From positions 1 through 64,000 of the forward strand of contig NZ_RHOR01000004.1 in the NCBI RefSeq assembly GCF_003946625.1: DNA of 64,000 nucleotides, written 5' to 3'. Shown here in pieces: positions 6,459-60,725 of this stretch. Position 1 is the stretch's first letter; every line of letters begins with the position of its first letter. This DNA comes from Companilactobacillus kedongensis. Lineage in GTDB: Bacteria > Bacillota > Bacilli > Lactobacillales > Lactobacillaceae. A program made the position numbers and the translations under genes. The notes under the pieces are model-generated. The model did no database searches. It saw only the letters and a list, made by a program, of their open reading frames with translations, and was not told the origin of the DNA.

Positions 6459-7253
6459 ATGCAAGAGCAAATTGAATTTATCGTCAGCAATGCGAAGGGT
6501 AAGCCTGAGAATATAGTTCATGAGGATAATTACTGTCCATTTTGTGATGTGAAATCATTGACGAATATTTTTAAACATGAGGACGATCGTATTTGGCTGA
6601 TGAATAAATTTCGTGTTTTGGCCGATAGTATGCAGACAGTTTTGATCGAATCATCTGATCACAATGGTGATTGGTCAAATTACAGTTCCAAAAATGGTGA
6701 GGAGATCATGGAATTTGCTTTGAGATGTTTTGATGAAATGATCAAAGACCCCAAATACAAATCAGTAGTTATGTATAAGAACTATGGTCCACATTCTGGT
6801 GGAAGTCTGTTACATCCACACATGCAGATCATCGGATTAGATAATGTAGACGCTTATGCACATATTCATGGTAATAATTTTGTTGGACATGATTATTTAA
6901 AAATTGGTAATGCTGAATTGAATATTTCCACTGAACCTATCTTGAGTTTCTTGGAATTCAATGTACGTATCAAAGATATATCTGATGCTAAAAGCATGTC
7001 TGATTCAGTCAGAATGCTAACAAATTATATTTTGCATAAATTCTTTAATGGTAAGTTTGATAGTTATAATCTGTTCTTCTATCACGTTAATAACGAGATC
7101 ATTTGTAAAATGATTCCTAGGACAAGTACTTCACCAATTGTTATGGGGTATAAGATGCCGCAGGTTGATAATCTTGAACAGATCCAAAAAATTGAGAAAG
7201 AAATTATTGATTTTAATGCTGGTTTTAACTTGGGGGTTAACTCCGGAAACTAA
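6459..7253 (+). CDS. DUF4931 protein, GalT/HIT-like nucleotidyltransferase fold
   Basis: The 264-residue protein resembles the DUF4931 family related to galactose-1-phosphate uridylyltransferase. A zinc-type CPFC pair is at about residues 27-30, and GGSLLHPHMQIIG near residue 120 contains the HPHxQ catalytic motif of GalT-type HIT enzymes. GalT uses this His for nucleotidylation, so a nucleotidyl transferase or hydrolase activity on a nucleotide sugar is plausible but unproven. The start is supported by GGGAGG upstream. It has its own leader (6389-6458). Its last codons and stop overlap the closing stem of the structured element at 7243-7409. Confidence 0.8.
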   Translation: MQEQIEFIVSNAKGKPENIVHEDNYCPFCDVKSLTNIFKHEDDRIWLMNKFRVLADSMQTVLIESSDHNGDWSNYSSKNGEEIMEFALRCFDEMIKDPKYKSVVMYKNYGPHSGGSLLHPHMQIIGLDNVDAYAHIHGNNFVGHDYLKIGNAELNISTEPILSFLEFNVRIKDISDAKSMSDSVRMLTNYILHKFFNGKFDSYNLFFYHVNNEIICKMIPRTSTSPIVMGYKMPQVDNLEQIQKIEKEIIDFNAGFNLGVNSGN

Positions 7254-7409
7254 TGAATTTTGCTTGCAGTGGAACCGTTCCAAGCCTCGGTCTTGGAACT
7301 CGATATAGAGCTTTGCTACGCAAATCTCTATATCGTTCATGCCGTAAGAACGGAAAACCACCGTTCAACGCCATTGTCACTGCTAGCAAAACTCATTAGT
7401 TTCCTCCGG
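7243..7409 (+). ncRNA. Structured 3'UTR element, copy 1 (unrecognised family)
   Basis: Read on the plus strand, the element has a long closing stem: 7243-7271 pairs with 7378-7409, about 25 bp with one 3-nt bulge and two mismatches. Inside are three hairpins. The first is GTTCCAAG/CTTGGAAC (7277-7299) with loop CCTCGGT. The second is CGATATAGAG/CTCTATATCG (7301-7335) with an inner TTTGC/GCAAA. The third is GAACGG/CCGTTC (7348-7366). The 5' arm overlaps the stop codon of the DUF4931 gene and a terminator follows 17 nt later. Copy 2 at 7556-7707 on the minus strand has the same topology, the same loop and compensated stems. I do not recognise a named RNA family; a dispersed repeat is the main alternative. 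Confidence 0.7.
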
Positions 7410-7425
7410 TTTTTGAAATTGATCT

Positions 7426-7470
7426 AAAAAGGCTATATCCTAGTAAATATTTGGATATAGTCTTTTTTAA
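7426..7470 (+). terminator. Intrinsic terminator after DUF4931 and element copy 1
   Basis: AAAAGGCTATATCC (7427-7440) pairs with GGATATAGTCTTTT (7453-7466), with one G-U, around a 12-nt loop. The stem leads directly into a T-run ending near 7468. Confidence 0.8.
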
Positions 7471-7475
7471 ATAAA

Positions 7476-7547
7476 AAATCCCCTTTAGTCGAGGTCAGAT
7501 TATGTTGTTCATCTAACATTGATTAGGGGGGATTTTTATATATTATT
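7476..7547 (-). terminator. Intrinsic terminator after glyA and element copy 2
   Basis: On the minus strand AAAAATCCCCCC...AATC pairs with GACTAAAGGGGATTTTTT across a loop of about 30 nt, and TTTTTTATTT follows. It is the first terminator downstream of glyA and lies just after the second structured element. Confidence 0.6.
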
Positions 7548-7555
7548 TAGACGGA

Positions 7556-7707
7556 GGTTATGAGTGATGGAACCAGTTATCACAGTGGAGTTAGGACGGC
7601 GACTTTACTCCACGGACGATTCTGAGATTTGCGATAACAAAGCTCAAAATCGAGGCCCCAGACCGAGGCTGGGACCGATCCGACAACAGGTGGAATCACT
7701 CATAACC
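7556..7707 (-). ncRNA. Structured 3'UTR element, copy 2 (unrecognised family)
   Basis: Read on the minus strand, the closing stem is GGTTATGAGTGAT (7707-7695) paired perfectly with ATCACTCATAACC (7568-7556). Three hairpins lie inside. The first is GGTCCCAG/CTGGGGCC with loop CCTCGGT, identical to copy 1. The second is CGATTTTGAG/CTCAGAATCG with inner TTTG/CAAA. The third is GTGGAGT/ACTCCAC. Relative to copy 1, two pairs in the first stem and two in the second change on both sides, so pairing is kept. The element starts 21 nt after the glyA stop and precedes glyA's terminator, so it is in the same gene-relative position as copy 1. Confidence 0.7.
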
Positions 7708-7727
7708 GAAGTCGGCTAAGTAAACCA

Positions 7728-8957
7728 CTATTTAACAGGATGTTTAGTTGTTAAAACTTTTGTACGATCATCCAGCTCTTTAAGTTTATCAGCATTATCG
7801 TGATTTTCGATTGCTTCAATAATAATATGAGCAACTTCACGACAATCGTCTTCATCAAAACCACGTGATGTGATTGCTGGTGTACCTAATCTTAAACCTG
7901 ATGTTAATTTTGGAGGTAATGGATCGTTTGGAATTGCTTCTTTATTAGCTGTGATGTGGATCGAATCAAGTAGGTCTTGAACTTCCATACCATTCAAATC
8001 TGTGTCAGTTAAAACGACATTTAGAAGATGGTTATCAGTACCGCCTGTCAAAACTGACAAGTGTTCTGAATCGTTAATAACTTCGGCCATGGCTGCAGCA
8101 TTCTTGATAACTTGAGCAATGTAATCTTTAAATTCAGGTTGTAAGTCTTCACCAAAGGCAACAGCTTTAGCAGCAATGACATGTTCCAAAGGTCCGCCTT
8201 GTGTACCAGGGAAGATGGCAGAATTAATCTTCTTACCAAGTTCTGGTTTAGCAAAAATCATACCACCACGAGGTCCACGGAGTGTCTTGTGAGTAGTCGT
8301 AGTAACGATATCAGCTACACCAATTGGAGTGGGGTGTAGTCCAACGGCAACTAAACCAGCAATGTGGGCCATATCAACCATAAGTAAGGCATTAACTGAG
8401 TCGGCAATTTTGCGGAATTTCTTGAAATCGATCACACGACTGTATGCAGAAGCACCGGCTACGATCAATTTTGGTTGAACTTCTGTGGCGATTTTTTGTA
8501 CGTCGTCATAATCAATGAATCCTTCGTCATTAACGCCATATGAATGGAAATTGTACATCTTACCAGAGAAATTAACACGAGATCCGTGTGTTAAGTGACC
8601 ACCAGCGTTTAGATCCATTCCTAAAACAGTATCACCAGGTTTTAATACAGCTTGGTAAGCAGCAGCGTTAGCCTGTGATCCAGAATGTGGTTGAACATTA
8701 ACATATTCGGCATTAAAAAGTTTTTTGGCACGGTCAATAGCGAGTGACTCAATTTGGTCGATATATTCACAACCACCATAATAACGGTGGCCGGGATAAC
8801 CTTCAGCATATTTATTAGTTAAAACTGAACCTTGGGCCTTACGAACATTGTCAGAAACAATGTTTTCTGAGGCAATCAATTCGATATTCCTATCTTGTCG
8901 AGCCTCTTCCTTATTGATTAAATCAAAAATTTCTTTATCACCTGTACTGTAATTCAT
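7728..8957 (-). CDS. glyA: Serine hydroxymethyltransferase
   Basis: The 409-residue PLP enzyme converts serine and tetrahydrofolate to glycine and methylene-tetrahydrofolate in the cytoplasm. The N-terminus [20 protein letters not shown], the tyrosine region [15 protein letters not shown] and the PLP lysine in [14 protein letters not shown] are standard and complete. AAGGAGATGG precedes ATG 8957. The nuclease gene upstream is 12 nt away, so the two probably share a transcript. In many Firmicutes glyA lies directly before upp and the atp operon; here it is more than 20 kb away and upp directly follows the sua5 gene. The 3'UTR holds structured element copy 2. Confidence 0.97.
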
Positions 8958-51629: not shown

Positions 51630-51671
51630 AGCAATTGACGTTTTTTAAATAATGTTTTATCATCATAATCA

Positions 51672-51876
51672 ACAGCTTTGATCAGGAGTATTAGTAAATA
51701 AGATTTTAGAGAGAGTACGTTAGCTGAAAAGTACTTATTCAAGTTTATTAGTTGTTACCTGTGAGCTATCAAAAAAATGATCGGGCCACCGTTATCTGTT
51801 GAGAGAAGAGTCTATGACTCTTAATTTAGGTGGTACCGCGAGCATTCGTCCTATTCAGGACGGGTGCTTTTTTTAT
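51672..51876 (+). promoter_or_regulatory. T-box riboswitch of valS
   Basis: The leader has the T-box core AGGTGGTACCGCG (51829-51841) in the antiterminator bulge, then the terminator AGCATTCGTCC/GGACGGGTGCT with seven T. The upstream portion forms the long stem I (GATCAGGAGTATTAGTAAATAAG onward). Uncharged tRNA would pair with the core and stop termination. Control by tRNA-Val follows from the gene served; I could not place the specifier codon with certainty, though a GTT in GTTGTTACC is a candidate. Confidence 0.93.
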
Positions 51877-60588: not shown

Positions 60589-60618
60589 ATGTGCTATAGT
60601 GTCTTTATATAAATAGTC

Positions 60619-60705
60619 AACACAAGGGGAGCCATTTGGCTGAGAGTGAATTGGAATTCAGACCCTTTAAACCTGTTATGTTAATACATGCGTAGGGATT
60701 GTGTT
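60619..60705 (+). promoter_or_regulatory. TPP (thi-box) riboswitch
   Basis: AACACAA (60619-60625) pairs with TTGTGTT (60699-60705) to form P1. Within lie GGGGAGCC...GGCTGAGAGTG and the conserved ACCCTTTAAACCTG (60662-60675), followed by the second-arm segment ATGCGTAGGGA. These are the diagnostic TPP-aptamer blocks. It controls thiT through the hairpin at 60726-60766. Confidence 0.95.
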
Positions 60706-60725
60706 AGGGACACTGGATGCAGTTG

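Follow-up and report, generated by a model that had tools for sequence, protein, structure and literature searches.

A family of folded repeats of about 175 nt is dispersed at the gene 3′ ends of Companilactobacillus kedongensis. In each unit, a closing stem and three hairpins meet at a junction whose joining bases are conserved. The most probable account (roughly 0.6) is that the family comprises small non-coding, non-autonomous mobile repeats of a BOX- or BIME-like kind, which spread as single units and whose arms are partly re-matched by DNA copying. Two copies lie in the window, which here means the whole stretch of 64,000 nucleotides analyzed.

Alignment and matches to R1, a covariance model built from 66 copies, place the limits of these two units at 7236–7410/7411 (+) and 7549–7716 (−), slightly longer than first noted. 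Copy 1 (7236–7410, +) falls into type B when its closing stem is classified by a hand rule, and it matches R1 with 161.2 bits at 7236–7411. The arms of its closing stem (5′ arm 7245–7271, 3′ arm 7378–7404) are 27 nt long and 93% complementary. Between them are hairpin 1 (7277–7299), seen in the fold and with the loop CCTCGGT; hairpin 2 (7301–7335), defined by the fold and by conserved columns, with the near-invariant GAGCTTTGC...GCAAATCTC; and hairpin 3 (7339–7374), defined by fold and alignment, with a GTAA...AAC motif. Copy 2 (7549–7716, −) is of type A by the same hand rule and matches R1 with 166 bits. Its hairpins 1, 2, and 3 fold at 7654–7676, 7617–7652, and 7585–7613, and its closing stem joins the 5′ arm 7695–7707 to the 3′ arm 7556–7568, as supported by arm complementarity and the fold. 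The preliminary description had reported a closing stem with three hairpins in both copies, and arms and loops are present as it gave them. It had also taken the third hairpins to be unrelated in sequence, which is not the case: both carry the GTAA...AAC motif, and this motif is seen across the family.

Copy 1, folded as 7243–7409 (+), reaches −76.9 kcal/mol against a mean of −33.6 for shuffled sequences (z −10.6), and copy 2, folded as 7553–7710 (−), reaches −72.8 against −38.8 (z −8.4). None of 200 shuffles was as good for either copy. Chance hairpins as the origin of both copies are ruled out by these shuffle tests together with the covariation of 66 copies.

Copy 1 is in the sense orientation with a DUF4931-family gene (6459–7253; PF16285/PF20956), and copy 2 with glyA (7728–8957, −; SHMT, PF00464). 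Both were originally described as lying between a stop codon and a terminator. Copy 2 starts 11 nt past the end of the glyA ORF, but the 5′ arm of copy 1 (7245–7271) contains the stop codon TAA (7251–7253) of the DUF4931-family gene. By eye, the C-terminus of the DUF4931-family protein is FNLGVNSGN here, FNSGF in C. keshanensis, and FNSNFK in C. tucceti. Judged from the sequence at 7225–7260, the stop codon of this gene may have been supplied by the element. Two terminator-like structures are found between the copies. An AT-rich hairpin with a T-run, recognized by eye, lies 3′ of copy 1 at 7431–7468. The second is an inverted repeat at 7474–7537 (arms 7474–7500 and 7511–7537, 78% complementary), or about 7474–7543 by eye, likewise with a T-run behind it. 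Both are missed by a simple terminator scanner, which allows loops of 3–8 only; what it lists between or at the copies is hairpin 1 of copy 2, twice, with the tail TCGATTTTGA.

The element had been called unrecognized, and the Rfam searches agree. At the gathering cut-off, the whole window gives a T-box, a TPP riboswitch, and two tRNAs, all elsewhere, and none at the repeat. The T-box leader (51669–51856) and the TPP riboswitch (60615–60716) are both above the Rfam cut-offs. Lowering the threshold to E 10 for 7000–7900 gives 11 matches, all far under their own cut-offs, and seven loci with strong copies give no matches up to E 0.5. The repeat is thus not assigned to a known RNA family. In the open-licence literature, nothing was recognized as a description of this repeat: the available portion of PMC2864571 names Lactobacillales motifs and does not describe it, nor do the available portions of PMC2267715 and PMC1852404.

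A blastn search with 7200–7450 finds 48 places in the C. kedongensis genome, counting the query itself and its own two arms. With R1, 149 of the 150 scored candidates match at E ≤ 0.001 (two of the 149 places overlap), and as these 150 were drawn from 767 first-look candidates, the true copy number may exceed 149. Within Companilactobacillus, R1 matches are present in 27 of 36 genomes, that of C. kedongensis included, with at most 76 candidates scored per genome; 13 of the 27 have weak matches only, with best E-values from 6.8e-11 to 1.1e-4. C. keshanensis and C. tucceti contain exact core matches of the repeat. In two further Companilactobacillus species, 39 copies were counted in 120 kb and 39 in 140 kb. 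This extrapolates to about 975 and 777 copies (about 280–325 per Mb), a rough figure because the stretches were picked for holding or adjoining a known copy. In a sample of Lactobacillaceae, 42 of 201 genomes and 10 of 40 genera match (at most 13 candidates scored per genome), and twelve chosen carriers from seven other genera have 1 to 142 matches among 150 scored each. Of the outcomes by which the preliminary description would have been refuted, three are not observed: a covariance-model search of related genomes finds further copies, the pairing is kept in them, and no Rfam family matches.

In an order-level sample, 8 of 118 genomes match, namely C. kedongensis, one member of Lactobacillaceae, and six genomes from two other families. 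The matches outside Lactobacillaceae are weak (34–45 bits): G036, G028, G266, G273, and G294 (family f5) and G324 (family f2). G036 has two of them arranged tail to tail, about 540 nt apart. These weak matches are possibly distant relatives or unrelated hairpins, and were left out of the membership. Phages and plasmids give no blastn match to copy 1 at E ≤ 0.001, and the exact core of the repeat is absent from viral contigs; the idea of phage or plasmid cargo was dropped on these grounds. In G009, one copy (L054:25–345; R1 match 126–303, −) is nested in a repeat of ~300 nt that has dozens of matches of 86–97% in the same genome, and a unit longer than the single repeat may be moving there.

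The position of the copies is constrained with respect to genes, which are represented by simple ORF calls throughout. Among the 142 of 149 own copies examined (7 places left out), a called gene lies 5′ of 138, on the same strand in 105 cases and on the opposite strand in 33. The placement on the coding strand at gene 3′ ends, noted at first for the two copies, holds for most of these copies. Of the 105 on the same strand, 74 begin no more than 20 nt from the ORF end, and five of these 74 overlap the ORF, at most by 21 nt. Outside Companilactobacillus, 37 of 47 copies are on the strand of the 5′ gene. When the copies are grouped into 97 units, 40 lie in convergent gaps, 50 in codirectional gaps, 1 in a divergent gap, and 6 at edges. 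For comparison, ordinary gaps longer than 60 nt number 62 convergent, 207 codirectional, and 84 divergent over 776 kb of the C. keshanensis genome; the window has 5, 17, and 6 of them. This distribution would correspond to about one insertion chance per gene 3′ end.

Neighboring copies are nearly always inverted relative to each other. Of the 49 neighbors less than 500 nt apart, 47 are tail to tail with gaps of 45–214 nt; the rest are one direct pair and one overlapping match. In one wide pair (L097), considered as a possible place for an autonomous copy, the 852-nt gap contains short ORFs by eye. Adding further copies from fetched loci gives 52 tail-to-tail pairs closer than 260 nt among 149 distinct copies, and such pairs recur in other genera. 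Types A and B, as assigned by the hand rule on the closing stem, are joined in 36 of the 52 pairs against 20 expected, which none of 20,000 shuffles reached. The partners in a pair differ from each other a little more than chance pairing would give (the observed mean is reached in 36 of 2000 random pairings). The A+B pairing may come from avoidance of near-identical inverted repeats, which are unstable. Codirectional genes flank 23 of the 48 multi-copy units that have a gene on either side, and this indicates that pairs form independently of two gene ends.

By an energy rule, a stable hairpin with a T-run is present within 170 nt on the 3′ side of 64 of 144 copies, against 2 of 144 for base-shuffled sequences and 7 of 144 on the 5′ side. 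The T-run of this hairpin is at a median of 67 nt from the unit. A stricter terminator rule gives 33 of 147 copies, 4 when shuffled, and 10 on the 5′ side. The unit itself ends in CCTCCGGCT without a T-run, and where it is present, the separate hairpin with its T-run comes next. A frequency of less than half counts against the mobile-repeat reading.

These features might suggest instead a host 3′UTR RNA element, the fold of which shields the 3′ end of the mRNA or insulates convergent genes from read-through, and which is kept at each gene by selection for RNA pairing. The sense orientation with a start close to the ORF end, the terminator-like hairpins 3′ of the 64 copies, and the very strong covariation with conserved joining bases and favored shared G-U states all point in this direction. 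We nevertheless consider it unlikely. In the 23 codirectional multi-copy units, there is no gene end for the second copy to follow. At the corresponding gene of the sister species, most copies are absent or damaged, and rare and recent changes show no preference for G-U, as described below.

Several observations suggest that the copies move. The two closest paralogs differ at 5.1% of positions (95% identical), and their 40-nt flanks are only 37.5% and 30% identical. The 15 closest paralog pairs are 5.1–12.8% different, with 40-nt flanks 22–43% identical. Close paralogs with unrelated flanks indicate that the spreading thing is a single unit of about 176 nt. The tail-to-tail pair as the mobile unit is not supported, since units 95% identical have unrelated 3′ flanks. 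A mobile palindromic repeat was one of three options raised at the outset, and it is the one favored by this dispersed family with close paralogs in unrelated surroundings.

Comparison with the sister species C. keshanensis covers 37 of the 97 units, those with both flanks in the fetched part (two of the 37 share one site). The 63 own copies in them correspond to 4 intact copies, 15 remnants, and 44 cases with no detected copy, and some of the C. keshanensis sites carry other copies instead. Remnants are internal deletions sparing the outer arms, for example after glyA. For the gap of the window itself, the script search covered only the glyA end. An R1 search of 30 glyA loci from the genus finds copies directly past the glyA stop in the C. 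kedongensis genome only, and three other glyA loci have an R1 copy elsewhere in the locus. C. tucceti has, by eye, a plain terminator-like hairpin after glyA. The mostly missing or reduced copies in the sister species and the differences among glyA loci indicate that the turnover is fast, through gain, loss, or both. At the G023 site orthologous to L039:2064–2508, a tail-to-tail pair is reduced by eye to a nearly perfect palindrome of outer arms, the ends of which were perhaps exchanged by inversion.

No target-site duplication stands out among 149 copies at 225 offsets. At best, 9 of 149 copies carry the same 4-mer in both of their flanks, against a mean of 2.7 and a maximum of 8 in 300 permutations, and shared 6- and 8-mers are observed in 2 and 1 copies. 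Old target-site duplications could have decayed. The genomes compared show no transposition event, mobilizing enzyme, autonomous copy, or clean empty site with exact ends.

The ends of the unit form an inverted repeat (helices 1–2). A REPIN- or MITE-type element moved by a known transposase (RAYT or Y1 of the IS200-IS605 kind, or an IS whose ends match), or else a retroelement that depends on a reverse transcriptase, is another candidate, but this appears rather improbable. With about 175 nt and three hairpins, the repeat differs from REPs, which are much shorter than 175 nt, and several carriers are without Y1 transposase. Pfam PF01797 (Y1) has no match in the carriers G002, G005, G008, G010, G015, G020, and G023, which have from 22 to at least 76 R1 matches, and the cognate RAYT expected of REPINs is thus not seen in these seven carriers; G002 is one contig and the others are drafts, which could miss a repeated gene. 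The genome of C. kedongensis has only a 36-position Y1 fragment at a contig end. Reverse transcriptase (PF00078) has no match in G000, G002, G009, G010, G015, G020, and G023, among others. Five carriers, all but G002 drafts, are without both domains: G002, G010, G015, G020, and G023. Y1 is present in G006 and G048, where there are no repeat matches. Neither RAYT nor reverse transcriptase is supported as the mobilizer, given their absence from several carriers, and there is no clear target-site duplication. Seven reverse-transcriptase matches, six of equal score, were seen in G043:C1; they probably represent a retroelement that has spread recently and show no link to the repeat family. What speaks for this type is its general appearance: REPs and BIMEs are likewise hairpin-rich, extragenic palindromes with more than 100 copies per genome and alternating orientation in inverted pairs (PMC2817692, in the part available), all of which is found here. 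The combination of distinct types in inverted pairs (A+B) is also like that of BIMEs.

The anatomy of the unit is well conserved. The consensus starts with GCCGCCT[AC]CGG, followed by the long closing stem, CCTG, GACC, and hairpin 1 (AGCC..GGTCT). Hairpin 2 reads CTCGATTTTGAGC TTTGC..GCAAA TCTCAGAATCG, and the 3′ part consists of hairpin 3 (GTAA..TAAC), CTGG, the closing stem, and CCTCCGGC. The sequence of the closing stem varies among copies. Clustering the copies into three groups by whole-sequence distance was uninformative. The covariation claimed from the two copies alone could be chance, as the sample is only two, and the 66 copies settle it in favor of the claim: 93.2% of cells are paired and 49 of 57 pairs are changed on both sides, neither of which is reached by any of 500 shuffles. 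The covariation score is 0.487, against 0.171 when shuffled and at most 0.120 with partners slid. For 48 copies of other genera in an alignment fitted to the R1 model, 91.6% are paired, 52 of 57 pairs are two-sided, and the score is 0.687 against 0.185 and 0.130. Anatomy and tail-to-tail pairs are the same in the copies of seven other genera, and the conservation of the joining bases across these genera counts against the mobile-repeat reading in that it suggests a function beyond mere mobility.

How the arms are kept matched was traced in alignments that were fitted to the model and so are biased towards pairing. In 136 nearest-neighbor comparisons of own copies, with reciprocal pairs counted twice, 732 pairs differ on both sides and are Watson-Crick in both copies. 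Single steps off Watson-Crick are 103 G-U, 120 A-C, and 88 other mismatches. A non-redundant set of 27 close paralog pairs, differing by 15% at most, shows 89 two-sided changes (59 transitions and 30 transversions) and 115 one-sided changes, with 31 G-U and 45 A-C single steps. In the control of 14 tRNAs from the fetched DNA, the pairs include 23 G-U and 0 A-C. Among pair states shared by more than 12 of 150 rows, 200 are G-U and 21 A-C; among rarer states, 126 and 177. A G-U preference in shared states is what selection on RNA or on single-stranded DNA would produce, and it indicates that a strand-specific folding constraint in the propagating lineage is likely; it would be older, with recent change indifferent to wobble pairing.

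Orthologous copies give a closer view. Between G009 and G043, both flanks are present in the other species for 33 copies, and for 19 of these a same-orientation copy is there too. Identity exceeds 0.7 in 13 of the 19, which together show 69 two-sided Watson-Crick changes and 54 one-sided changes. After removal of two for which another copy claimed the same partner, the 11 remaining ortholog pairs show 47 one-sided changes and 58 two-sided Watson-Crick changes (24 transversions), against about 3.6 expected by a rough estimate from independent change. Of the 48 two-sided runs, 39 are single pairs, and single steps are 9 G-U and 22 A-C. The second species pair agrees only in part: in four ortholog pairs of G000 and G023, one-sided changes outnumber two-sided changes, 28 vs. 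7. Five of these 7 are in hairpin 1 of L090, where five of six consecutive pairs are changed.

The early conclusion that selection acts on RNA structure and not on DNA sequence does not stand in this form. Rare and recent A-C steps are at least as frequent as G-U steps, in contrast to tRNAs, and isolated transversion flips occur. DNA arm copying would account for such isolated Watson-Crick flips, transversions included; RNA compensation by way of G-U does not. Arm-to-arm template switching is our preferred but tentative explanation of the covariation and fits the G009/G043 set best; strong selection for pairing is also possible. The excess of one-sided over two-sided changes in the 27 close paralog pairs and in the G000/G023 set counts against template switching. 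Hairpin 1 of L090, compared with its sister-species ortholog, looks block-swapped, so gene conversion among copies plays a part as well, and it fits part of the G000/G023 set. Whole-hairpin exchange by gene conversion as the main source of the covariation, which would be compatible with mobile repeats, has only a slim chance of being right, because the two-sided runs in the G009/G043 orthologs are mostly single pairs. In any case, such very strong covariation is not clean evidence of RNA selection.

The mobile-repeat reading can be put together as follows. The unit would fold as a single strand with its closing stem and three hairpins, and a trans-acting enzyme or a host process would copy the folded strand. 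Units are inserted, or persist, nearly exclusively at gene 3′ ends, presumably because they do the least harm just behind a stop codon. A second unit often lies tail to tail ~100 nt off, across a terminator-like hairpin. Arms of resident copies would then be re-matched by template switching between hairpin arms during replication, and the need to fold for propagation would act beneath this process. It can be speculated further that the family is a distinct mobile class, in which the four-helix one-strand fold is the ticket for copying by a postulated enzyme across Lactobacillaceae, both flanks of terminators are targeted, and covariation comes largely from template switching; this stronger version is possible and rather doubtful. 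It is highly improbable that the repeat gives rise to small regulatory RNAs, released from the 3′ ends of mRNAs. A folded 175-nt segment before a terminator could be a stable fragment, but the copies are many, their closing stems differ, and no conserved unpaired stretch was noticed beyond short junction and loop bases.

The nearest known kind would be the small interspersed repeats (BOX/RUP/SPRITE and REP/BIME). The present repeat appears to work like them, but nothing found here shows that it belongs to any of them. BOX, RUP, and SPRITE of Streptococcus pneumoniae are small, interspersed, strongly folded, extragenic, and enriched between convergent genes, and are considered parasitic and non-autonomous; BOX transcripts can arise as 3′ extensions of operons, and SPRITE is strongly enriched near the 3′ ends of convergent genes (available part of PMC3049150). 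The likeness lies in the small size, interspersed and extragenic location, strong folding, and enrichment between convergent genes. BOX is modular (boxA-boxB-boxC), with terminal repeats likened to those of IS (PMC3049150), whereas the repeat here has a closing stem and three hairpins. Compared by description, it also differs from BOX in its variable closing stem, its common tail-to-tail pairs, and its occurrence in 10 of 40 sampled Lactobacillaceae genera. MRSC-65-2 is likewise present in many copies and covaries strongly; it has been proposed to be selfish and may matter as DNA. According to the portion of PMC11109978 available, it is a single long stem with a UYCCGG repeat in diverse phyla. 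The present repeat, with its four-part fold, is so far found in Lactobacillaceae, plus the weak matches in two other families. Template switching has been described as keeping stems paired through double substitutions copied from the other arm, without G-U intermediates, and was inferred there from reconstructed histories of RNA genes (PMC8794818, in part); here it is proposed for a high-copy bacterial repeat.

In stretches of two species, the density reaches about 280–325 copies per Mb. Few bacteria would carry so many non-coding repeats, yet no Rfam family matched this one. If the fold is a host device, lactobacilli would have a genome-wide 3′-end system. If template switching is true, two-sided substitutions with kept pairing are not by themselves evidence of a functional RNA, which bears directly on the discovery of structured RNAs. 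If the pairing is mostly template-written, the family would be a large natural counter-example to covariation as proof of functional RNA.
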